From positions 1-64,000 of the forward strand of contig CAJAVU010000070.1 in NCBI GenBank assembly GCA_903945495.1: DNA of 64,000 bases, read 5' to 3'. This DNA is from an uncultured Flavobacteriales bacterium (GTDB lineage Bacteria; Bacteroidota; Bacteroidia; Flavobacteriales_D; Crocinitomicaceae). Every line of letters begins with the position of its first letter. Position 1 is the stretch's first letter. This document shows positions 798 to 62,500 of the stretch, piece by piece. The notes under the pieces were generated by a model, which saw nothing but the letters and a program-made list of their open reading frames with translations, ran no database searches and had not been told where the DNA came from. The position numbers and the translations under genes were made by a program.

Positions 798-1883
798 TTA
801 TTTGATCTGGATGCCTCTGGAAGAATATAGTCCTGCAGATTGAGTTTTACTTTTGTCTAAACTAAAAAAGAATGTACTACCAACTCCATATGTACTTCGG
901 ACGGAAATAGTTTGTCCATGTGATTCTATAATATGCTTACAGATTGCTAGACCTAATCCAGAACCACCGTCATTTCTGTTGCGACTTTTTTCAACACGGT
1001 AAAAGCGTTCAAATAATCTTGGAAGATGAGCGGCTTCAATACCAGGTCCGTTGTCAGAGACTTCAGTTGTGATCATGTCGTCCATTAAATAGAAACGAAC
1101 GATTGTCGTCCCGCCCTGGTTGCCATAAAAAATCGAGTTGGATATTAAATTGGTTAGAACTTGAGCAATTTTACTTTTATCACCTATGACGAATTTAGAT
1201 CCGTAATCTTTCGCAAAAGTTAAATTGATATTTTTCTCTTTAGCAATAATTTCTAAGGAATCAAAAACCTCTTTTGTCAATTCCACAATATCAAATGGAC
1301 GGAGTGCAAGTTTTAACGCATCCGCTTCAAGTTTGGTAATTTGGTCTAAATCTTCAATGATATTTACCATTCGATCAGTTGCTTTTGAAGCTCGTTCTAA
1401 AAATGATCTATTTACATTTTCGTCTTCTAATCCGCCGTCAAGTAACGTTAAAATATATCCTTGAATGGAAAATATAGGTGTTTTTAATTCATGTGCCAGA
1501 TTGCCGAGAAACTCGCGACGAAAGGCTTCTTGTTCTTTTAACTTGGAAATCTCTTTATTACGCTCTTCTGTCCATAATTGGGTTTCTTTTTCTGCATTTG
1601 CAATTACGTCATCTGTGATTTTAAATTGTAAATCGTTTTCAGGAGTAATTTTTCCTTTGCGAATAGATTTATACAGAACTTTTAATCGATCGTTTATGAA
1701 ATATTTAATGAAAAAGTAAAAAACGCCGAATGATATTAAGCCTGTTGTAAAGGGTAATCCTATTAATACCCAAAAAGGAAAATTCATCACCTGTATATCG
1801 ATGATGAATGTAATAATCAAGGTTAAGACAACGATAATTGCACTACCTCCGATTAATAAATGTATTGGTTTTAAATTTTTCAC
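798..1883 (-). CDS. PhoR-like sensor histidine kinase
   Basis: Inner-membrane histidine kinase of 361 residues. Two membrane segments (about 10-30 and 37-61) enclose a very short periplasmic loop, so there is no large extracytoplasmic sensor. The HisKA domain carries the phospho-acceptor H131 in HELKTP; the HATPase domain shows the N box (NLISNSIFYG), DNGPGIE and GSGLGLAI. This layout is typical of PhoR-type kinases in Flavobacteriia. Its start overlaps the stop of the upstream PhoB-like regulator by 4 bases (ATGA), so the two form an operon and a cognate pair. A phosphate-sensing role is inferred from the family and from the TonB receptor nearby, and is not shown by sequence. Confidence 0.85.
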   Translation of the reverse strand: MKNLKPIHLLIGGSAIIVVLTLIITFIIDIQVMNFPFWVLIGLPFTTGLISFGVFYFFIKYFINDRLKVLYKSIRKGKITPENDLQFKITDDVIANAEKETQLWTEERNKEISKLKEQEAFRREFLGNLAHELKTPIFSIQGYILTLLDGGLEDENVNRSFLERASKATDRMVNIIEDLDQITKLEADALKLALRPFDIVELTKEVFDSLEIIAKEKNINLTFAKDYGSKFVIGDKSKIAQVLTNLISNSIFYGNQGGTTIVRFYLMDDMITTEVSDNGPGIEAAHLPRLFERFYRVEKSRNRNDGGSGLGLAICKHIIESHGQTISVRSTYGVGSTFFFSLDKSKTQSAGLYSSRGIQIK

Positions 1884-2572
1884 TTTTCGCTGAAGGTATA
1901 TCCGACTCCTTTTATTGTACGAATATAATCATCTCCAAGCTTTTCTCGTAATTTTCTGATGTGAACATCAATAGTTCTTTCACCAACAATTGTTTCATTG
2001 CCCCAAACGATAGATAGAATTTGATCTCTGGTATAAACTTTACCTGGTCTGCTAGCCAACAATTCTAATAATTCAAATTCTTTTTTAGGTAGAAGAAGAC
2101 TTATACCATTCATTTCAACTTTGAATTTCTCGCGATCAATTTTTAATTTGGATTCAATCTGATCATTTGAATCGTTTACTGGTCTGTCTAATCTTCTTAA
2201 TAAAGACTCAACCTTGCTGATTAATAAACGAGGGCGAACAGGCTTTGAAATGTAATCATCTGCACCTGCTTCGAATCCTGCAATCTGTGAATAGTCTTCT
2301 GCACGTGATGTTAAAAAGGCAATAATAGGTTGAGTGATGTTTAAATCTTTACGGATAATTTGACACGTTTCAATTCCATCCATTTTGGGCATCATTACAT
2401 CTAGAAGTATTAATGATGGATGAATTTGTTGAACCATTTTCACTCCTTCTTCTCCGTTTGATGCACTGAATACTTTGTACCCTTCTTTTTTCAAATTATA
2501 AGTTAAAAACTCAATAATATCTGGCTCATCATCAATCAATAATAATGTGTGACCTTTGCTTGCTTGTTGCAT
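1880..2572 (-). CDS. PhoB/OmpR-type response regulator
   Basis: Response regulator of 230 residues: receiver domain (about 8-125) with the acidic pair DDE, phospho-acceptor D58 (LLLDVMMP) and the conserved lysine in SKPVRP, then a winged-helix DNA-binding domain with RTIDVHIRKLREKLG and the GVGYTF wing. It is co-transcribed with the PhoR-like kinase (4-base overlap). It closely resembles the regulator at 7660-8334 (shared YNLKKEGY, EDYSQIAG, GADDY, SKPVRP/AKPVRP), suggesting an old duplication around the TonB receptor block. A terminator just upstream (2590-2627) separates it from the beta-helix protein gene, so it should have its own promoter. Confidence 0.87.
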   Translation of the reverse strand: MQQASKGHTLLLIDDEPDIIEFLTYNLKKEGYKVFSASNGEEGVKMVQQIHPSLILLDVMMPKMDGIETCQIIRKDLNITQPIIAFLTSRAEDYSQIAGFEAGADDYISKPVRPRLLISKVESLLRRLDRPVNDSNDQIESKLKIDREKFKVEMNGISLLLPKKEFELLELLASRPGKVYTRDQILSIVWGNETIVGERTIDVHIRKLREKLGDDYIRTIKGVGYTFSEK

Positions 2573-2589
2573 AATTTGAAAACATTTTT

Positions 2590-2627
2590 AAAAAAAAGGA
2601 GATTACTCACAGTTATGAGCAATCTCC
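2590..2627 (-). terminator. Rho-independent terminator after the beta-helix protein gene
   Basis: On the minus strand GGAGATT and CTCA arms pair with TGAG and AATCTCC around a six-base loop, followed by eight T. It ends the transcript of the sorting-domain protein before the PhoB-like gene. Confidence 0.85.
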
Positions 2628-2641
2628 TAAATTCATTGATA

Positions 2642-4462
2642 TTATTTGTTAATCGCTAGTTTGATAGTTTTAGCAACTGAATTTTCTGTAGAGATAACCA
2701 CATTGTAGTATCCTGCTTTCAATGATGATGTATTCAAAGATTGAATGCTTTTACCTGCTAATAATGATGCGTTTTCAGTATAAACGATTTTTCCTGAATT
2801 GTCTACAATTGATAAAGTGATATTCGAATTTTCTTTCAAATTCATTTCAACATTAACATTATCAGATGCTGGGTTAGGGAATAATTTTACTGAGGAGATT
2901 GAAGTAATTTCTTCTAATCCAACTACTGTAATTACAACTTCGAATGAATCTACCGCTTCACAAGCTCCGTTCGTCGCTGTTAATGTAACAGTGTATGTTC
3001 CTGTTGCAGAATATTCATGAACAGGACTTGTAGTTGTAGATGTATTTCCGTCACCGAAATCCCAAGCATATGTTGTTGCTCCAACTGATGTGTTTGTGAA
3101 TGTTGCTACAGTATCAACAGATGAAACAGTTGCAGAAGCAGAAAGGCCGTAGTTTGCAACATTATAATTCTCATTTTGTGGATCAAAGTTTGACCAACAT
3201 GCTGTCCAATCGTTCGTTCCATCAAATGCTCCACGGTATGTTGTTGTTTCGAAGAATGAATTGTTCAAGTTCGGATAAGTAAAACTTGCTCCTGTTAATG
3301 CTGGAGAACCTGCACTTAATAAGAAATTAGGATTTGCGTAATTGTTTGGTGCGATAGCTTGTAACCCTTGTGGAGTCGATAAGACTGAGTTTCCACCTGC
3401 GTTAAACCAAGCAGCCATTCCAAAAGTCAATGTTGTAGAATCCAAAGGTGTGGGACAACCTGCAATAATATTGTTTTTAAATTGCAAAGAACCACTATTA
3501 GCATTGTTTCCTGTTGTTGTACCATCAATTTTCAAACCTACAGGGAATCCTGCAAAAATAGAATTGTATGTACAAGTTGAAGTACTTCTGCGCAAGTGTA
3601 AAGCTCTTTTAAAGTTTGAATTAAATCCATTACTGTTTTGTGTCGCCATTGGTCCGAAAACAGAAATGTTTGAGAAGATTGGTTTAGTAATTGGACCGTT
3701 TGTTGTTCCAGTTGCATCATTATCAGATTCAAATCCGTTTGACCCAGAGATATCAGCTACCAATGAATCGCTAACAGCAACTGCAAATTGAACACGACCA
3801 GTAAAACCATAATCTGTATCAAACATATCGTCAACAGTTTTGTTGACAATTAAGTGCTTACAGTTTACTGTTCCACCGAACCATTCAAAAGCATCATCAC
3901 CACCGTGACTAACTTGAACATAGTCAATAGTTGTTCCTAAACCAACAGCTCCCATTGTTAAACCGTTTGTTTCGTTGTTAGGTAAATAAGCAACTCCAGC
4001 GAATTCAATACGAACGTATTTCAAAACACCTGAATTGTCATTTACATCAGTACCACCGTACAAACCTTTAACTGGGTCAATTCCACCTTCAGCTAAACGC
4101 TCGCCAGCAGGATCATTTAAAGGAGCTCTACCACACAAGATAATTCCACCCCAATCTCCAGGGTTTCTGTTTCCAGCACTTTGGTATGAAGTGAATACAA
4201 TTGGTTGTGTTGCTGTTCCCTCAGCCATAAGTTTTGAACCTCTTGTTACAACTAAAGTTGCAGCATTTCCTTTAATAATTGTTCCTGGTTCAATTGTTAA
4301 AGTTGCATTGTTTGTTACGTAAATAAATCCACCTGTTAAAGTGTAAATATTGTTGTTAGTCCAAGTCGTATTTGAAGTAATATCACTTGAAATTGTTACT
4401 TGTGCATTCAAGCTTAAAAAGCTGATAATTGCGAAAGCTGTTAATAGTAAATTTCTTTTCAT
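2642..4462 (-). CDS. Secreted beta-helix/PKD protein with type IX sorting domain
   Basis: Secreted protein of about 606 residues. Start chosen at MKRNLLLTAFA, which gives a clean signal peptide ending at NAQ; an upstream in-frame start lacks one. Residues about 20-400 are rich in short T/N/G strands typical of right-handed parallel beta-helices, with acidic stretches GGDDAFEWFGG and DDMFDTDYGFTGR. A PKD domain (about 445-530, WDFGDGNTS) follows, and the last 75 residues (LFPNPASD ... AKTIKLAINK) are a type A sorting domain for export and anchoring by the type IX system. It lies between a TonB receptor and a PhoBR-like pair, so a role in binding or processing a nutrient for that receptor is plausible. 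No enzyme active site was recognised. Confidence 0.82.
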   Translation of the reverse strand: MKRNLLLTAFAIISFLSLNAQVTISSDITSNTTWTNNNIYTLTGGFIYVTNNATLTIEPGTIIKGNAATLVVTRGSKLMAEGTATQPIVFTSYQSAGNRNPGDWGGIILCGRAPLNDPAGERLAEGGIDPVKGLYGGTDVNDNSGVLKYVRIEFAGVAYLPNNETNGLTMGAVGLGTTIDYVQVSHGGDDAFEWFGGTVNCKHLIVNKTVDDMFDTDYGFTGRVQFAVAVSDSLVADISGSNGFESDNDATGTTNGPITKPIFSNISVFGPMATQNSNGFNSNFKRALHLRRSTSTCTYNSIFAGFPVGLKIDGTTTGNNANSGSLQFKNNIIAGCPTPLDSTTLTFGMAAWFNAGGNSVLSTPQGLQAIAPNNYANPNFLLSAGSPALTGASFTYPNLNNSFFETTTYRGAFDGTNDWTACWSNFDPQNENYNVANYGLSASATVSSVDTVATFTNTSVGATTYAWDFGDGNTSTTTSPVHEYSATGTYTVTLTATNGACEAVDSFEVVITVVGLEEITSISSVKLFPNPASDNVNVEMNLKENSNITLSIVDNSGKIVYTENASLLAGKSIQSLNTSSLKAGYYNVVISTENSVAKTIKLAINK

Positions 4463-4525: not shown

Positions 4526-4533
4526 CAAAAGTA
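4526..4533 (-). promoter_or_regulatory. -7 promoter element of the beta-helix protein gene
   Basis: On the minus strand TACTTTTG matches TAnnTTTG. It lies about 64 bases before the chosen ATG. No TTG sits 17-23 bases upstream; instead there is a C-rich tract (minus strand), which would suit an activator-dependent promoter. Confidence 0.4.
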
Positions 4534-4591
4534 GGTTGATTGAATCGGGGGGAGGTTAGGGGTGAATTATTCTTAGTTTAAGAAATGATTA

Positions 4592-4627
4592 ATAAAAAAA
4601 ACCTCAATGTTAACATTGAGGTTTTTT
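4592..4627. terminator. Bidirectional hairpin terminator after the TonB receptor
   Basis: A perfect 10-bp stem, AACCTCAATG with CATTGAGGTT, closes a TTAA loop. On the minus strand it is followed by eight T, ending the TonB receptor transcript; it also has six T on the plus strand. Confidence 0.88.
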
Positions 4628-4646: not shown

Positions 4647-7496
4647 TTAGAACTTGTACGAGAATGAAATGCTGAAATTTCTTCCGTATTTTATTCCTTG
4701 TATTACTTTATCTTCTTCCGCTTCGTATTTCTTAGAGCGGTTAAAATCTTGATAGAAAATTGCATTTTGATTAAAAATGTCGCTTGCATTAATTTTGATT
4801 TCGCCATTTTTGTTTTTGAAAACTGTTTTGGCAAGTTGTAAATCTAGCACTGTACGAGGGTTTTCATAAATATCTTGGTATCCATTTGTTCCAACAAAGG
4901 CAATTCGACGACCAATTCTATTTACCAACAAACTTGCTCCAAATCCTTTGTCGTCATTTTGGTAAACCAATCCACCATTAATTAAATAAGGAGATTGACC
5001 TTGCATTGGGCGATATTTTTCTTCATCTGTAACAGCTGTTGCTACATTTGATAAATCAACAACAGATTTTACCAATGTTAAGTTAGTGTAAAAAGTAAAG
5101 TTGTCTAATGCATTTGAGTTAAACAAAGAATCTATTTTACTCAACTTAGTGCGGTATTCTATTTCAATACCATAATCGACTGCATTAGCAACATTTCTAA
5201 ATGTATACGTTCTTGAACCAGACCCACCAAAGAACACTGTGTTTTCAATAGGATTTTTAAAGTCTTTATAGAAAACTGACGTTGAAATGATTTGTCCACT
5301 ACCAGGGAAGAATTCAAATCTCAAATCTACATTTGTGATATTTGCTGCTACCAGCGTGTCATTACCTACAACAGCGGATGATGTATTGAAGTCATAAAAA
5401 GAGAACGGTGCAAGTTCACGGAAATCTGGTCTAGCTACAGTTCGCGAAACGGCTCCTCTCAAATTTATTTTTTTATTTAATGCATATGTCAAGTTCAATG
5501 AAGGTAAATAGCTCAATGTTGTGTTATCAATATTAATTGAATCACCCCCATAACTAATAGAACTTAATTGTTGTCTGAAATTCTCAACACGTAAACCATA
5601 TACAGCTCTTAATTTTGACGTCAATTTTTGATCAGTCATAATGTATCCTGCATGTAAGTTTGTTGATGCTGAATATGAGTCAGATGGGTTCGTTGTTTCT
5701 CCTAATTTAAAACCTTTAGCACTGATATTTTCTTCAGCGAAGATTGAATCCTGTGGTAAAGTTAATAAGTCATAGTTAAATTGAGCAGGACTATTAATTG
5801 CGTAACCAAAAACGCGTGCATCAAATGCTCTATCTTTAATCGAACCAGCATATCCAAATTTTAAAGAACTTTTTTCTTTCAGGAAGTTATAAGGGATTGC
5901 AATTTCTGCCATAGCAGCATACAAATCTTCTCCTAGATTTGAGAAAAATTTACCTGCGAAATCAGGGGATGGTGATCCAAATGGCACGTATGCAGTGAAA
6001 ATAGAATCAGACATTGTACCTTGTGGAGTTCGGTTCTTGTAATAAAGCATTCTTTTTAAATTAGGAATTGTAGTCAAGGTTTTACTATAATTCAATCCCC
6101 ATTTAACTTTTAAAGATGTGCTATCAGAAACTTTAAGTAAATGTTCACCATTCAATTGTGATGTAAACATTTTACTTGATGTATATTGCATAGCAGTAGC
6201 CTCAATAATTTGATCAGCATCAATGTTTTCACCTGTTCTTAAAATAACCTGATCTGTAGAATTGTTACTAAATAAATTTTTCAAGGTAATTTTATTGTTC
6301 TTTCCGAATTTGTATGCAAAGTTCATCATTGCTCCCCATGAAACATTTTCGCGGTATGTAGCATCTTTATAGTCAAATACACGTGATGAATCTTCGTTAT
6401 AATCTTTACGAGTAACATCTAAATAACGACGTGTATAATTGTAACTTAAAGCACCAATAACTCCAAAAGCATTTGTCTTTGTTGAATCAGGACGTATTGT
6501 TTTAGCGAATCCTACTTGGTAATTTTGTCCAAGAGGAGAAGATTTTTGATTGTTAATTTGCCAATCATTCGAGAAAAGTTTACTGTTCTCAAATCGCGTA
6601 ACTGGATCTGAAAGTAAACCCTTAAATACAGTTGTAGAAGGCAACGCATCTGGATACATACGATCCTTAACGCCAAAACCAATCCAATCGTTTTTACTTC
6701 CGTCATAGTTAGAATATGATTTGAAAGTAGATTGAGTATTGTAATTTGTACCTGCACTGAATGATACAAAATCCTTGTCTGGAATTTCTTTGGTATTTAC
6801 TTGAATAACTCCTCCTGCAAAATCACCAGGCAAATCTGGAGATGCAGTTTTGTAAATCATCATATTGTCCAACATGGTAGATGGGAAGATGTCAAATGAA
6901 AAGGCTTTACGATCTGCTTCTGTTGAAGGTAAAGGCAATCCATTGATCATTGCTGTATTGTAACGGTCATTCAAACCACGAATAATAACAAATTTATTGT
7001 CCTGAACCGAAGCTCCACTAACACGTTTAAGAACAGCACTTGCATCTCTATCTGGAGATCGTTTAATTGCTTCTTGTGAAATCCCGTCAACTTGACCAGC
7101 AGCATTTCGTTGCATCTTGATCACATTATCCGTTGATTCTTTATTTACAGTTGCGGTAACTGTTACGGCTCCGATTTCTTTAACAATCGGTTCCATTACA
7201 ATTTCAAAACTCGTTACTTCATTTGATTTGACAGCGATATCAGAAATAATCTTTGTATTGTATCCATTATAATTGAATATTAAAGAGTATGTTCCAACAG
7301 GGATGTTTTGAAAAATAAAATTTCCATCCAAATCACTGATCATTCTGTAAGTTTGATTTTCAACTAAAATTTTAACACCTGGTAATGTTTCACTTGTTTT
7401 GCCATCAGTTACTTTTCCACTAATGGTTCCTGTTTGTCCAAAAATCCACGAACTCATGACAAGAGTTATGAAAATTGAAAGTGCTTTTAAGTTCAT
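4647..7496 (-). CDS. TonB-dependent outer-membrane receptor
   Basis: Outer-membrane transporter of about 949 residues. Start set at MNLKALSIFITL, which gives a signal peptide ending near FGQ. Order: signal peptide, carboxypeptidase-regulatory-like domain (about 22-105, TISGKVTDGKTSETLPGVKI), plug domain (about 130-240, with VIIRGLNDRYNTAMINGLPL and GDFAGGVIQV), then a long beta-barrel ending in aromatic SFSYKF. No SusD-like partner is adjacent; the next gene downstream is the beta-helix protein. Its promoter region has 11-bp-phased repeats of the kind PhoB-family regulators bind, and two PhoB-like genes flank the block. Phosphate or organophosphate uptake is a reasonable guess, but the substrate cannot be read from sequence. 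Confidence 0.87.
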   Translation of the reverse strand: MNLKALSIFITLVMSSWIFGQTGTISGKVTDGKTSETLPGVKILVENQTYRMISDLDGNFIFQNIPVGTYSLIFNYNGYNTKIISDIAVKSNEVTSFEIVMEPIVKEIGAVTVTATVNKESTDNVIKMQRNAAGQVDGISQEAIKRSPDRDASAVLKRVSGASVQDNKFVIIRGLNDRYNTAMINGLPLPSTEADRKAFSFDIFPSTMLDNMMIYKTASPDLPGDFAGGVIQVNTKEIPDKDFVSFSAGTNYNTQSTFKSYSNYDGSKNDWIGFGVKDRMYPDALPSTTVFKGLLSDPVTRFENSKLFSNDWQINNQKSSPLGQNYQVGFAKTIRPDSTKTNAFGVIGALSYNYTRRYLDVTRKDYNEDSSRVFDYKDATYRENVSWGAMMNFAYKFGKNNKITLKNLFSNNSTDQVILRTGENIDADQIIEATAMQYTSSKMFTSQLNGEHLLKVSDSTSLKVKWGLNYSKTLTTIPNLKRMLYYKNRTPQGTMSDSIFTAYVPFGSPSPDFAGKFFSNLGEDLYAAMAEIAIPYNFLKEKSSLKFGYAGSIKDRAFDARVFGYAINSPAQFNYDLLTLPQDSIFAEENISAKGFKLGETTNPSDSYSASTNLHAGYIMTDQKLTSKLRAVYGLRVENFRQQLSSISYGGDSINIDNTTLSYLPSLNLTYALNKKINLRGAVSRTVARPDFRELAPFSFYDFNTSSAVVGNDTLVAANITNVDLRFEFFPGSGQIISTSVFYKDFKNPIENTVFFGGSGSRTYTFRNVANAVDYGIEIEYRTKLSKIDSLFNSNALDNFTFYTNLTLVKSVVDLSNVATAVTDEEKYRPMQGQSPYLINGGLVYQNDDKGFGASLLVNRIGRRIAFVGTNGYQDIYENPRTVLDLQLAKTVFKNKNGEIKINASDIFNQNAIFYQDFNRSKKYEAEEDKVIQGIKYGRNFSISFSYKF

Positions 7497-7520: not shown

Positions 7521-7550
7521 CAAAGGAACGCTGATACTCTTATTGTACAA
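7521..7550 (-). promoter_or_regulatory. Promoter of the TonB receptor gene
   Basis: On the minus strand, TTG (7548-7550), 19 bases, then TTCCTTTG (7521-7528), which is close to TAnnTTTG. It lies 25 bases before the chosen ATG. The direct repeats at 7551-7598 are immediately upstream of the -33 element. Confidence 0.5.
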
Positions 7551-7598
7551 TTACTGAAAGGTTACTAGTTTATTAAATCGAGATAACATAGAGTTAAC
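7551..7598 (-). promoter_or_regulatory. Candidate PhoB-like operator: 11-bp-phased direct repeats
   Basis: On the minus strand GTTAACTC and GTTATCTC start 11 bases apart (7598 and 7587), and AGTAAC and AGTAAT start 11 bases apart (7566 and 7555). The two pairs are 21 bases apart and abut the -33 element of the TonB receptor promoter. OmpR/PhoB-family regulators bind head-to-tail to direct repeats with 11-bp spacing. The motif itself is not the E. coli pho box, so assignment to either flanking regulator is inference. Confidence 0.45.
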
Positions 7599-7659: not shown

Positions 7660-8334
7660 TTAGTCCTGTTTTTCAACAAACTTATAACCAATACCTTTGA
7701 TTGTTTTAATGTAGTCGTCACCAATTTTTTCACGAAGCTTTCGAACATGAACATCAATTGTACGATCACCAACAACTATTTCTGACCCCCAAACTTTATC
7801 GAGAATAACATCTCTTTCAAAAACGTAATCTGGTCTAGAGGCAAGCAAGGCAAGTAGTTCAAATTCCTTTCTTGGTAAATGAATTATCTCACCATTTTTT
7901 TCAATAATGTATTTTTCACGGTTAATTACCAAATCTTTGTTGGTTGGCTCATCAACGGTTAACATCCCTTTTCTGCGAAGAAGAGCATTGATTCTACTGA
8001 TTAAAACTTTAGGACGAACAGGCTTAGCAACATAATCGTCGGCTCCAGCATCTAAACCAGCTATTTGACTATAGTCTTCGTTGCGGGCAGTTAAAAAACA
8101 AATGAGTGTTTGCTGAAAACCTTGGGTTGATCGAATTGCATCACAAACTTCAATTCCATCCATCCCCGGCATCATTACATCTAGAATAATTAAATCGGGT
8201 TTTAGCTCTTTCATCAGTGCTAATCCAACTTCACCATTTTCCGCAACTTCAACAAGATACCCCTCTTTTTTCAAATTGTATTTTAACAATTCACGGATAT
8301 CTTCTTCATCATCGATTATTAAGATTGAAACCAT
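7660..8334 (-). CDS. Second PhoB/OmpR-type response regulator
   Basis: Response regulator of 224 residues with receiver (about 1-120: IIDDEED, phospho-acceptor D52 in ILDVMMP, lysine in AKPVRP) and winged-helix domain (RTIDVHVRKLREKIG, GIGYKF). It is a close paralogue of the product of 1880-2572, yet no kinase gene is next to it; the PhoR-like kinase 6 kb away may serve both. It is read in the same direction as the TonB receptor, 163 bases upstream of it with no terminator seen between. Its own upstream region (8335-8732) is long and holds a perfect palindrome and a candidate small RNA. Confidence 0.86.
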   Translation of the reverse strand: MVSILIIDDEEDIRELLKYNLKKEGYLVEVAENGEVGLALMKELKPDLIILDVMMPGMDGIEVCDAIRSTQGFQQTLICFLTARNEDYSQIAGLDAGADDYVAKPVRPKVLISRINALLRRKGMLTVDEPTNKDLVINREKYIIEKNGEIIHLPRKEFELLALLASRPDYVFERDVILDKVWGSEIVVGDRTIDVHVRKLREKIGDDYIKTIKGIGYKFVEKQD

Positions 8335-8732: not shown

Positions 8733-9419
8733 ATGAAAATTAAAATTCTTCTAGTCGAAGATGACACAAGTTTAGGCTTTGTAATATCTGATCAATTGAA
8801 ATCTGATGGATACCAGGTTACGTTATGCACTGATGGTGCAGAAGGGTTTAAACGTTTCAATGAAGAAAAATTTCACTTGTGTATTTTTGACGTCATGATG
8901 CCAAAGAAAGATGGATTTTCTTTAGCACGCGATATTCGTAAAATAAATACTGAAATCCCTATTTTGTTCCTTACAGCAAAATCCATGACTGAAGACAAGG
9001 TTGAGGGATTTAAAGCTGGGGGTGACGACTATTTAACAAAACCATTCAGTGTTGAAGAATTACAATTGCGCCTAGCGGCTTTGCTGAAGCGTGTAAATAT
9101 TATCGTTGCTAAAGAGGATGATTCAATTTTAACCATTGGTCAATATGTTTTTGACACTGTAAACTTTACATTGAAACATCTTTCTTTCGAAAAAACACTA
9201 ACGAAAAAAGAGGCTCAGATTTTAAAAATTCTAATGAAGTTCAAAAATCAAGTTGTAGCACGGGAAGTTGTGTTGAACGGAGTTTGGGGGCAAGATGATT
9301 ATTTCGTTGGAAGAAGTTTAGATGTGTTTATTACAAAATTGAGAAAATACTTAAAAGAAGATGAATCAATTCAAATTCTGAATATTCATGGTATAGGCTT
9401 CAAATTAGAAATTTCATAA
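8733..9419 (+). CDS. rprY: RprY-like OmpR-family response regulator
   Basis: Response regulator of 228 residues: receiver with VEDD, D53 in FDVMMPKKDGF and lysine in TKPFS, then a winged helix with LTKKEAQILKIL, ARSLDVF-like RSLDVFITKLRKYL and INIHGIGFKL. The FDVMMPKKDGF-LARDIR and RSLDVFITKLRK stretches recall RprY of Bacteroides, an orphan-like global regulator. I set the start at MKIKILLVEDD; the longer in-frame ORF runs back through the terminator hairpin. The stop overlaps the tsaB start (TAATG), so the two are co-translated. No kinase gene is adjacent. The symbol is a similarity judgement. Confidence 0.82.
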   Translation: MKIKILLVEDDTSLGFVISDQLKSDGYQVTLCTDGAEGFKRFNEEKFHLCIFDVMMPKKDGFSLARDIRKINTEIPILFLTAKSMTEDKVEGFKAGGDDYLTKPFSVEELQLRLAALLKRVNIIVAKEDDSILTIGQYVFDTVNFTLKHLSFEKTLTKKEAQILKILMKFKNQVVAREVVLNGVWGQDDYFVGRSLDVFITKLRKYLKEDESIQILNIHGIGFKLEIS

Positions 9420-10804: not shown

Positions 10805-11565
10805 TATTGAAATATTGAAAGAACGCCTACTTCGTTGACAGTTGCTTTTTCCGTAATTTCTATTTCTTGATAGACTGGAATCATTTCCCCTGTAGCTGCA
10901 TCTTTAGATAAGGCATATACTTTGTACTTACCAATTTGCAATCCTTCGAACGTGAATTTTCCATCGGCACCAGTTCGCGCAATATCATTGAAAACAGTTC
11001 CATCTCCATAAATCAAATAAACTTTTTCATCTGTAATTGCCATTTCTGCTCCATTGATATCAGATTTCCCCTGATTCGTAACATCAACATTGAAATTCGT
11101 AGTACCGTTATCAGCATCTGTGATTTCTGTATGAGCGAGACTTACCAATGTTAATATATCATTGTTTTGAGAAATTGTAAAATCACCGTTTAAAGCTGCA
11201 TCGATTGCTGTTAATGTAGCGTTGGCAATTTCAAGATTTGAATCGCTGTAATTGAAGTTTACCTGAATTCCAGTTCGACCTTGCAATTGTGGATCGCCAT
11301 TGCTTACCCATGTTGGATTGTTATACCAAACGTAATACAAGGTTCCTCCGGCAGGTCCATTGAAAAGAAAATAATCACCATGTTCGATGTCATTACCTTG
11401 TTTTATTGTTATGTCAATTATTTCCGACTCTCCTGTTGAATTATTCACTCCAATGACACTTCCTCTAATCGCTGATGTTCCACCTGGACCCGCAACTTTT
11501 TTACAACTTGAAAATGCTCCAACAAGAAGGAGTGATAAAAGACTGATTTTTAAATATAATTTCAT
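10804..11565 (-). CDS. Hypothetical lipoprotein with Ig-like/SdrD-B-type C-terminus
   Basis: Lipoprotein of 253 residues: signal sequence with lipobox ending FSSC21. The middle holds short strands with TITIK-like repeats and no recognised domain. The C-terminal 70 residues (YGDGTVFNDIARTGADGKFTFEGLQIGKYKVYALSKD) look like a carboxypeptidase-regulatory or SdrD B-like fold. It overlaps the CotH gene by 4 bases (ATGA) and the DUF2490 gene by 1, so the three products are probably made together and may act together at the cell surface. Function unknown. Confidence 0.72.
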   Translation of the reverse strand: MKLYLKISLLSLLLVGAFSSCKKVAGPGGTSAIRGSVIGVNNSTGESEIIDITIKQGNDIEHGDYFLFNGPAGGTLYYVWYNNPTWVSNGDPQLQGRTGIQVNFNYSDSNLEIANATLTAIDAALNGDFTISQNNDILTLVSLAHTEITDADNGTTNFNVDVTNQGKSDINGAEMAITDEKVYLIYGDGTVFNDIARTGADGKFTFEGLQIGKYKVYALSKDAATGEMIPVYQEIEITEKATVNEVGVLSIFQ

Positions 11566-13766
11566 TTTACTGTTATTTTAATTGTTTTGAAGAATCCGTT
11601 TTTTTGCTGAACTGTAACGAAATAAATTCCATCGCTATAAGTTGAAAAATCAAGCGTGGTTTCCTCGAAATTGCTAATTTCTTGAGATTGAATTAGAGTT
11701 CCCTGAGGAGAGACAACCAAAAGCGTAACATTTTTTAAATTATCATTCACCCGAAGTGTGATTTTATCATCGGTTGGGTTGGGATATGCCATTAGTTGTT
11801 TTTCATTTGAAAACTCATCAAAACCAAGGTCATTGCATGTCCCGAACATATTGTTATCCATCCAGGTTAAACGTGCGGTTAACCAATTTTTCATATAATC
11901 AATTTCTTCCTGATAAGTGTCTCCAATGAAATTGTTAGGCCAGACATAGGTCCCTAAAATTGGCCAGCGATTGTAATTTCTTGATGCTGGATCAGTTAGC
12001 AATAATGCCATGCTATCAATATAATTCATTAAGTAAGTGGTGCTCAGTGTTGTTTGGCGCAACTCAAGCCATCTGCATTTTACAGCATGTGAATAAGTTG
12101 AATCTTGTAATAAACGACTCCACCAAAATGGATTTTGCCATCCACCGCCACATACTGAATTGAAGTTTATTTCCCATCCGGTTGTATTTCCTCCTTGGCA
12201 ATAATCTGCATTTCCAAATCCCAAATTAAAATCCCACAGCGGCCCAGCAACGATTTCTCCACCTTCACTTACTCGATTTTTGTGCAAATAAGTTGAAATA
12301 CGATAACCATCAACATTTTTTGAAACCTCATTTACCAACATAAAATCAATGAAGGAAGCTTCGTCAATATAAGGTTTATAACCCAAAACAGGATCTGTGA
12401 AATTTGGTCCAGCTAAGGCATTTTCCCAATTTGTAACAAAATCCTCTATGTATTGAAGTTGTGATGGATGCATATCAATCGCTTCTGGATCATGTAATTG
12501 ATAGCCTATTGTGCTATTTCCGGGAACAGCACTCGCATATGGTGAGTTCCAAGAAACTACACCGCCGGCGGTCGTTTTGTCAATTTTAAAAATGTACCCA
12601 CCCGTAAGTTCATTGTTCAAGGTATCCGAATAATTCAAGGGATCAATATTTACGCGCCCTGGATTGACTTTAATTCGTTCCATGAAAACATACACGCCAA
12701 TATATTCGCCGTTCAACACTACTTCGCACAACTGAGTTCGCGGAGCCCATCTTCCCATTTCAGTACCAATTTTATAGGTAAGAACATTTCGAATAAGTGC
12801 TTTGTCTGTGTAGGGTGCGTATAAAATCCAATCATTATCAGCAGGCCAATCGAATACTGAAACATTGTAATTAATGTTCGTATCTGGACCTCTCGTTTCC
12901 AAACCATATGATTTCATCGGAAATGTATTGGACGATGAGCCTCTTCGTTCAATGGCAATTTGACCGTAAAATTCGTTGGTTGGATCTGTAATATGATTAA
13001 TTGCTCCTGGTCCATTATCGATAATTCCCATAAACCCATCGATTTTAGGTTCGTCAGGAATAGTAACTCCGTTTGTATTTAATATTACAATTGGCAAGTT
13101 AGATGTTGAAAGTTCAACTGGTGGAACAAACCAAGAAGGTGTCGGACCATAATTCGTTGAAGTATTCGAAATGCCGAATGACAAAAATGCACGTGACGTA
13201 AAATCTGACGACCCAGCAGTTTGATTATGTGTTTCAATGCATAAAACGTTTGGACCATTGACAATTGCCGATTGAACTTGGGTTTGTGTAAAAACAAATT
13301 GGTCAGGGTAACCACCAGAATACAACACGGCTTCATGTGAAATAGATGCCAATTGATTGTAAGTTGGCTGACCGGTTCCTGTAAGACCATTTCTAGCAAT
13401 TTCAATACCATTTAAATAGGCTACGAAACCATCATCGTGATCCATATTCAAGATTGCTTTTGTTAGTAATGAAACGTCTACAACATTGAATGTAATTCGT
13501 TGATAAACAGAGATTGTTCCAGTTGGAAGCGCGGTGTTGTCGTCACTGTCTCCAAAGCCAAATCCACCTGTTCCGGTATTCCAACCTGTAGCATTGAAAC
13601 TTGGCGAAATCCAATTTGTTGGTGTGGTAGCAGTTGGAATAATATAATTCCAAGTACTATTGTCGTAAACAACAGTTTCCCAATGATCTGATTGTGCATT
13701 TACTTGAAATGCAGCAATTAATAAACAAGAAAACAGAGTGGTTTTTTGTATAATGCGTATTAACAT
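11562..13766 (-). CDS. CotH family protein with type IX sorting domain
   Basis: Secreted protein of 734 residues. Signal peptide to about 25 (ending NAQ), an N-terminal jelly-roll-like module (about 26-205), a CotH domain (about 220-620) and a type A sorting domain (last 75 residues, AYPNPTDDKITL). CotH domains are atypical kinases; visible motifs are ERRGSSSNTFPMKSY, LYAPYTDKALIRNVL, GVYVFMERIKV and the metal-binding-like GPLWDFNLGFGN. In spores CotH phosphorylates coat proteins; substrates of secreted Bacteroidota members are not known to me. It is first in a tight operon with a lipoprotein and DUF2490 protein. Polysaccharide or glycoprotein modification is possible but unproven. Confidence 0.83.
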   Translation of the reverse strand: MLIRIIQKTTLFSCLLIAAFQVNAQSDHWETVVYDNSTWNYIIPTATTPTNWISPSFNATGWNTGTGGFGFGDSDDNTALPTGTISVYQRITFNVVDVSLLTKAILNMDHDDGFVAYLNGIEIARNGLTGTGQPTYNQLASISHEAVLYSGGYPDQFVFTQTQVQSAIVNGPNVLCIETHNQTAGSSDFTSRAFLSFGISNTSTNYGPTPSWFVPPVELSTSNLPIVILNTNGVTIPDEPKIDGFMGIIDNGPGAINHITDPTNEFYGQIAIERRGSSSNTFPMKSYGLETRGPDTNINYNVSVFDWPADNDWILYAPYTDKALIRNVLTYKIGTEMGRWAPRTQLCEVVLNGEYIGVYVFMERIKVNPGRVNIDPLNYSDTLNNELTGGYIFKIDKTTAGGVVSWNSPYASAVPGNSTIGYQLHDPEAIDMHPSQLQYIEDFVTNWENALAGPNFTDPVLGYKPYIDEASFIDFMLVNEVSKNVDGYRISTYLHKNRVSEGGEIVAGPLWDFNLGFGNADYCQGGNTTGWEINFNSVCGGGWQNPFWWSRLLQDSTYSHAVKCRWLELRQTTLSTTYLMNYIDSMALLLTDPASRNYNRWPILGTYVWPNNFIGDTYQEEIDYMKNWLTARLTWMDNNMFGTCNDLGFDEFSNEKQLMAYPNPTDDKITLRVNDNLKNVTLLVVSPQGTLIQSQEISNFEETTLDFSTYSDGIYFVTVQQKNGFFKTIKITVK

Positions 13767-62365: not shown

Positions 62366-62396
62366 AAAAAAAAAGGATGACCATCTGACCATCCTT
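62366..62396 (-). terminator. Rho-independent terminator of the second candidate small RNA
   Basis: On the minus strand AAGGATG pairs with CATCCTT, loop of 10 bases that holds a repeat of GATGGTCA, followed by nine T. Confidence 0.85.
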
Positions 62397-62399
62397 ATT

Positions 62400-62432
62400 A
62401 ACCTAAACCTAACCTAAACCTAACCTAAACCT
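62400..62432 (-). repeat. Three perfect 11-bp tandem repeats
   Basis: AACCTAAACCT is repeated exactly three times on the plus strand (AGGTTTAGGTT on the minus). It lies within the candidate small RNA. Confidence 0.95.
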
Positions 62433-62500
62433 TAACAATTATATGCTCGAGGTGCTTAAAAATGATTGATTAAGTAATTCACCTCAAATCGACTACATGA

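Follow-up and report, generated by a model that had tools for sequence, protein, structure and literature searches.

A conserved array of TTAAC-type direct repeats upstream of a TonB-dependent receptor gene, a predicted Pho box of the Bacteroidota

The locus described here lies in a 64-kb window, by which we mean the whole stretch of DNA analysed, from an uncultured member of the Flavobacteriales. Its central gene encodes a TonB-dependent receptor (4647..7496, minus strand; PF07715, PF13715, PF00593), the reading frame of which is listed from 7550 with the likely ATG at 7496; the receptor protein query that we used started at 7487, three codons inside this ATG. Upstream of the receptor lies the gene for a PhoB-type response regulator with no kinase adjacent, RR2 (7660..8334, minus; PF00072, PF00486; VVGDRTIDVHVRKLREK). 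Downstream, the gap before the next gene contains a palindrome, CCTCAATGTTAACATTGAGG, with a T run behind it (4602..4621, minus); this is a probable terminator, and it was not listed by the terminator scan. The next gene encodes a T9SS-secreted protein with a PKD domain (2642..4462, minus; PF18911, PF18962; ATG at 4462), and on its 3' side the same scan placed a terminator-like hairpin (2597..2628, minus). Beyond it are a second PhoB-type response regulator, RR1 (1880..2572, minus; IVGERTIDVHIRKLREK), and, overlapping the RR1 gene, that of the adjoining sensor histidine kinase (798..1883, minus; PF00512, PF02518). On the other side of RR2 an RprY-like regulator (8733-9419, plus strand; 274.6 bits, below the cut-off of 370) also lacks an adjoining kinase and is directly followed by a TsaB-like gene; the place of RprY is kept through the genus. 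In those loci of the genus that reach far enough, the order is TsaB and RprY (divergent), RR2, the repeat array described below, the receptor, the secreted protein, RR1 and the kinase. In the more remote loci L189 and L191, a regulator-kinase pair is divergent from the receptor.

The promoter region of the receptor, which reads GTTAACTCTATGTTATCTCGATTTAATAAACTAGTAACCTTTCAGTAATTGTACAATAAGAGTATCAGCGTTCCTTTG on the minus strand from 5' to 3', carries a six-unit array of direct repeats (7539..7597, minus). Its TTAAC-like units are TTAAC (7597-7593), TTATC (7586-7582), TTAAT (7576-7572), GTAAC (7565-7561), GTAAT (7554-7550) and ATAAG (7543-7539), and they succeed each other in steps of 11, 10, 11, 11 and 11 bp toward the -7 promoter element TTCCTTTG (7521..7528, minus). 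The initial annotation had recognized two repeat pairs here, GTTAACTC/GTTATCTC and AGTAAC/AGTAAT, with the members of each pair starting 11 nt apart and the pairs separated by 21 nt. All of these repeats and distances are exact on the minus strand, and the 21 nt resolve into 11 plus 10 once the third unit, TTAAT, is counted between the pairs; the extent of the array had been underestimated, since this unit and the final ATAAG after the second pair make it six units rather than four.

The array is conserved without gaps across the genus. The receptor was searched for in 60 genomes (the window's own and its relatives), from which the loci of the 30 best matches were taken, together with 18 more loci from named genomes. 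After the loci had been oriented, 28 promoters were anchored on the -7 element, and position counts were made on the 19 of these that align to it without gaps, all of the genus and with the window's own included. In these 19 promoters the TTA of unit 2, the TTAA of unit 3 and the TAA of unit 4 are invariant; the TTAA of unit 1 and the TAA of unit 5 are so with a single exception each, and three of the four positions of ATxA in unit 6 do not vary. As to phasing, among 16 representative receptor promoters (up to 300 bp each), 24 pairs of KTAAY are found at a lag of 11 bp, in 15 of the 16, whereas 500 shuffles averaged 0.45 pairs and never gave more than 3. Other lags between 6 and 20 gave 5 pairs (lag 10), 4 pairs (lag 17) or 0-2 pairs (all the rest). 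In 612 kb of neighbouring sequence, with both strands counted, there were 50 such pairs at lag 11 (0.08 per kb), no more than at lag 18. A strict lag-11 pair is present in 30 of 35 receptor-promoter rows, in which L001/L020 and L002/L026, apparently the same two genomes with identical upstream sequence, are each counted twice; it is absent in L032 and in the remote L044, L045, L047 and L048. The tandem direct repeats of 11-nt period that characterize a Pho box are thus found in this promoter, both in its steps and in their conservation.

As a bare repeat pattern, the array is neither rare nor exceptional. An 8-mer recurs at lag 11, with seven or more of its eight letters matching, at 52 places on the minus strand of the window; at five of these a second pair, of 6-mers, follows after 22-44 nt. 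A repeat scan of the window did not list a direct-repeat family at the array. These counts speak for a chance arrangement in AT-rich DNA, a reading contradicted by the conservation of the array and the enrichment of the same spacing across operons, and one to which we give hardly any credence. What makes the array significant is the identity of its motif, its phasing and its conservation, not the pattern alone. Across the window's own genome, GTTAACTN4GTTAACT with up to three mismatches gave 345 matches against 1902 for the reversed control, and a four-unit KTAAY pattern gave 142 against 276; since these ladder patterns are rarer genome-wide than their reversed controls, we do not trust single-genome matches outside conserved promoters. 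Two one-mismatch ladder matches were taken as chance, one on contig C23 before a GldM-like gene (named by eye) and one on contig C110 with no gene in suitable orientation nearby. A profile, R1, trained on 18 promoters including the window's own (alignment A1, from which L036 was left out as a near-duplicate), finds the window site at 2e-19 and no other match below 0.05 in the same genome.

Three further ladder-like sequences deserve mention in their own right. The tandem CCTAAA/CCTAAC simple repeat at 62390-62440 mimics a ladder, and as a CCTAAA-type simple repeat the candidate at about 62430 was rejected as an operator. A weaker ladder of TTAAC, TTAAT, TTAAA and TTAAT (13841-13800, minus) precedes a T9SS CotH gene (11562-13766) and was set aside because it is common to only some of the orthologues. 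The only exact four-unit 11-bp ladder of the genome, also a weak R1 match, is at G000:C102:16418-16455 (locus L131), upstream of a cluster of ExbB-like, ExbD, ExbD-like, TonB-like and PBP_like_2 genes, of which ExbD and PBP were named by model and the rest by eye. In relatives this ladder is clear in G008, and elsewhere it is a two-unit remnant at most; we keep this possible operator before an exbB/exbD/tonB-like/PBP operon only as a lead.

The position of the array relative to the promoter elements is instructive. The -7 element conforms to TTYCTTTG in all 19 aligned promoters. We take the Bacteroidetes promoter consensus to be TTG at -33 and TAnnTTTG at -7; against this, the receptor element is invariant yet has T where TA has A, and the secreted-protein gene has TACTTTTG. 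The initial annotation had placed a -33 element at the TTG of 7550-7548 (7548..7550, minus), 19 nt from TTCCTTTG; this sequence is there, but its G occurs in only one of the 19 promoters, so that it does not hold as a conserved -33 element. Measured back from the final base of the -7 element, the array extends from roughly 76 nt to 19 nt upstream, and its units 5 and 6 sit in place of the -33 element. The receptor promoter lacks a conserved -33 sequence and is probably dependent on an activator.

It is of importance that the same ladder occurs upstream of pstC. Of 149 genomes of the class Bacteroidia, 69 gave a PstC match, and all 30 loci obtained from these 69 were used. Within 1500 bp upstream of pstC there were 25 KTAAY pairs at lag 11, in 18 of the 30 loci and 13 of 20 families, compared with a mean of 1.7 and a maximum of 7 in 200 shuffles of these regions; other lags from 6 to 20 gave 0-4 pairs, and in the 133 kb made up of pstC itself and the sequence downstream of it, these loci held 2 lag-11 pairs. 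The remaining 12 loci had no strict lag-11 pair upstream of pstC. The element thus precedes phosphate-regulon genes in the class, not in the window's own genome, where pstC has no match. A reverse-strand control on the pst loci was dropped as invalid, GTTAAC being its own reverse complement. A weight matrix was also derived solely from the pst units, with no contribution from the receptor promoters. With five-unit ladders, this matrix ranked the receptor site first in the 64-kb window (18.6), followed by the CCTAAA-type simple repeat (17.9) and the next candidate (11.7), and the maximum in 60 simulated windows was 15.2. With four units, the simple repeat came first and the receptor site second, its score then lying on the other strand, as GTTAAC is self-complementary. 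The rank obtained with the pst-only matrix links the array to the Pho-box kind by an argument that is not circular.

With regard to the proteins that may bind the array, RR1 and RR2 have the receiver and winged-helix domains of the PhoB type (PF00072 and PF00486) with a PhoB-like recognition helix, align with E. coli PhoB and match the PhoB DNA-binding domain chains 1gxp and 3t72. Both fall below the cut-offs of the PhoB equivalog TIGR02154 (202.2 bits for RR1 and 205 bits for RR2, cut-off 296.2) and of NF053854 (202.3 and 200.9 bits, cut-off 270), and we therefore file them as PhoB-type regulators, not as certified PhoB. Though below the cut-off, they are the genome's two best matches to the Bacteroidota PhoB model. 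The two are 59% identical and fall into separate clades of a regulator tree that is weak at its base owing to long branches. The recognition helix RTIDVH[IV]RKLREK is found in RR1, in RR2 and in the regulator beside the pst operon of locus L215. The residues that precede the helix are VVGDRT in RR2 and in the L215 regulator and IVGERT in RR1; the loop at this place is presumably the one that touches sigma in E. coli PhoB. Because VVGDRT is common to RR2 and the L215 regulator, and because RR2 has a constant place next to the array, RR2 appears somewhat more probable than RR1 as the direct regulator, if not both act. The kinase of RR2 may be the one beside RR1, for which the PnpS/PhoR-like models scored below their cut-offs. 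The divergent RprY-like regulator, which stays next to RR2 throughout the genus, could be proposed to bind the array instead of RR1 or RR2; however, its recognition helix differs (GRSLDVFITKLRK), it is not adjacent to the receptor promoter and no ladder lies upstream of its own gene, so that we regard its involvement as very improbable.

Direct repeats of this kind have well known parallels. The PhoP box of B. subtilis consists of TTAACA-type repeats, with a similar TTAAC core and the same 11-bp period, though in another phylum and with another promoter type. In the available portion of a review on the Pho boxes that serve PhoB in E. coli and PhoP in S. coelicolor, a phosphorylated PhoB-family regulator sits head to tail on 11-nt direct repeats (PMC4415409). 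The 11-nt direct repeats are common to those boxes and to ours; the part played by a bound regulator is known there and predicted here, and our array differs from them in its TTAAC-like core, in contrast to CTGTCAT or GTTCACC, its six units, its one 10-bp step and its Bacteroidota -7 element. In Riemerella anatipestifer, the accessible part of a DAP-seq study reports genome-wide binding of PhoP with a core TTTAACA, and a shifted TonB-receptor promoter (PMC9603813); core and target resemble ours, the part consulted gives no repeat spacing, and the motif was reported there as ArcA-like. For B. fragilis, the portion at hand describes the shift of a 512-bp pstC promoter fragment by PhoB (PMC3547664), a likeness in that a Bacteroidetes PhoB binds a pst promoter, with no box sequence to compare. 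Apart from the Riemerella core, a TTAAC-type Pho box for the Bacteroidota was not found described in the accessible parts of the open-access literature.

The closest counterpart in gene content is found in Flavobacterium johnsoniae, in which Fjoh_0543-0546 encode PhoR, PhoB, a TonB receptor and FII according to the part of the article available (PMC8115612). In its Table 1 the receptor has a first value of 8.02 and FII one of 9.91, which we take as the transcript log2 change on phosphate depletion (PMC8115612). There, as here, a kinase, a PhoB-type regulator, a TonB receptor and a secreted protein stand side by side; in F. johnsoniae the receptor and FII are phosphate-responsive. The comparison of the two loci is one of gene content. 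Our locus differs in that two regulators flank the receptor, the gene order is another and the regulator genes have no ladder. Taken with the pstC ladders, the neighbourhood and the recognition helix, the strong induction of the F. johnsoniae receptor fits the earlier suggestion that one or both of the flanking PhoB-family regulators use the array as their operator. The array is supported as a real operator of the kind first named, though larger than described.

A signal other than phosphate must be considered for such an operator. A PhoB/OmpR-family regulator might instead serve WalRK-like or envelope-stress control of surface proteins, and it is consistent with this that WalR/YycF sites likewise consist of TGTTAA-like units in direct repeat, at a distance of about 11 bp, as stated in the accessible text of PMC5405149, that RR1 and RR2 also match the YycF and MtrA models, and that the Riemerella PhoP sites are ArcA-like in the part of PMC9603813 consulted. 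Moreover, PhoU, PstC, PhoX and PhoA families have no match in the window's genome (G000), which is rated 99.99% complete and contains one PBP-like protein; the classical Pst branch seems absent from it, and the phosphate reading thus draws on relatives. Those relatives argue the other way, with the same ladder enriched ahead of the pstC gene in 13 of 20 families and, as far as the available part of PMC8115612 goes, a phosphate-responsive counterpart locus in F. johnsoniae. We regard the non-phosphate alternative as unlikely, if more credible than the chance arrangement or the RprY-like regulator. It is our preferred and, from sequence and analogy, quite probable reading that the array is a Bacteroidota Pho box, the predicted operator of a PhoB-type regulator that would activate the TonB receptor.

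The secreted-protein gene may belong to the same regulatory unit. Between the probable terminator of the receptor gene and the -7 element TACTTTTG of the secreted-protein gene (4526..4533, minus), a second ladder (4555..4592, minus) runs through TTAAT (4592), TTAAA (4581), ATAAT (4570) and CTAAC (4559) in steps of 11, 11 and 11. In 12 upstream regions of this gene, about one per clade from the window and 23 loci, the ladder score was 11.9 at period 11, compared with -3.7 for shuffled sequence, and below zero at all other periods from 7 to 16; among the secreted-gene loci tried, one yielded an empty row and another no match, and the comparison also used 12 receptor promoters. No ladder was present in the upstream regions of RR1, RprY, TsaB, the kinase and RR2. 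We regard the secreted protein as the positional counterpart of F. johnsoniae FII, a link that rests on position. Its structure model (mean pLDDT 60.9) is too uncertain to use, and Foldseek with that poor model returned poor TM-scores, with no beta-helix among the matches listed (the FII family being a pectin-lyase-like beta-helix).

We infer that subunits of the regulator would bind head to tail on the TTAAC-like units, about one per helical turn, after phosphorylation that would most plausibly occur under phosphate limitation. The phosphorylated regulator would then recruit RNA polymerase and turn on the TonB receptor, and through the second ladder the secreted protein behind it would be turned on too. 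Together, the two proteins would presumably take up a phosphorus-containing ligand. It is conceivable, if rather doubtful, that this represents a stripped-down Pho regulon, without detectable PhoU, PstC, PhoA or PhoX, in which both PhoB-type paralogues act on the array that replaces the -33 element and drive the receptor and its secreted partner, the outer membrane and not Pst being the place where phosphorus is gained. The two paralogues have been kept with nearly one recognition helix and differing preceding loops.

These findings offer a candidate sequence for the Bacteroidota Pho box, a series of TTAAC-type units at 11-bp intervals that is positioned to stand in for the -33 region. With such a box, prediction of the phosphate regulon would come within reach for many Bacteroidota genomes, and phosphorus uptake could be assigned to TonB receptors whose ligand is unknown.
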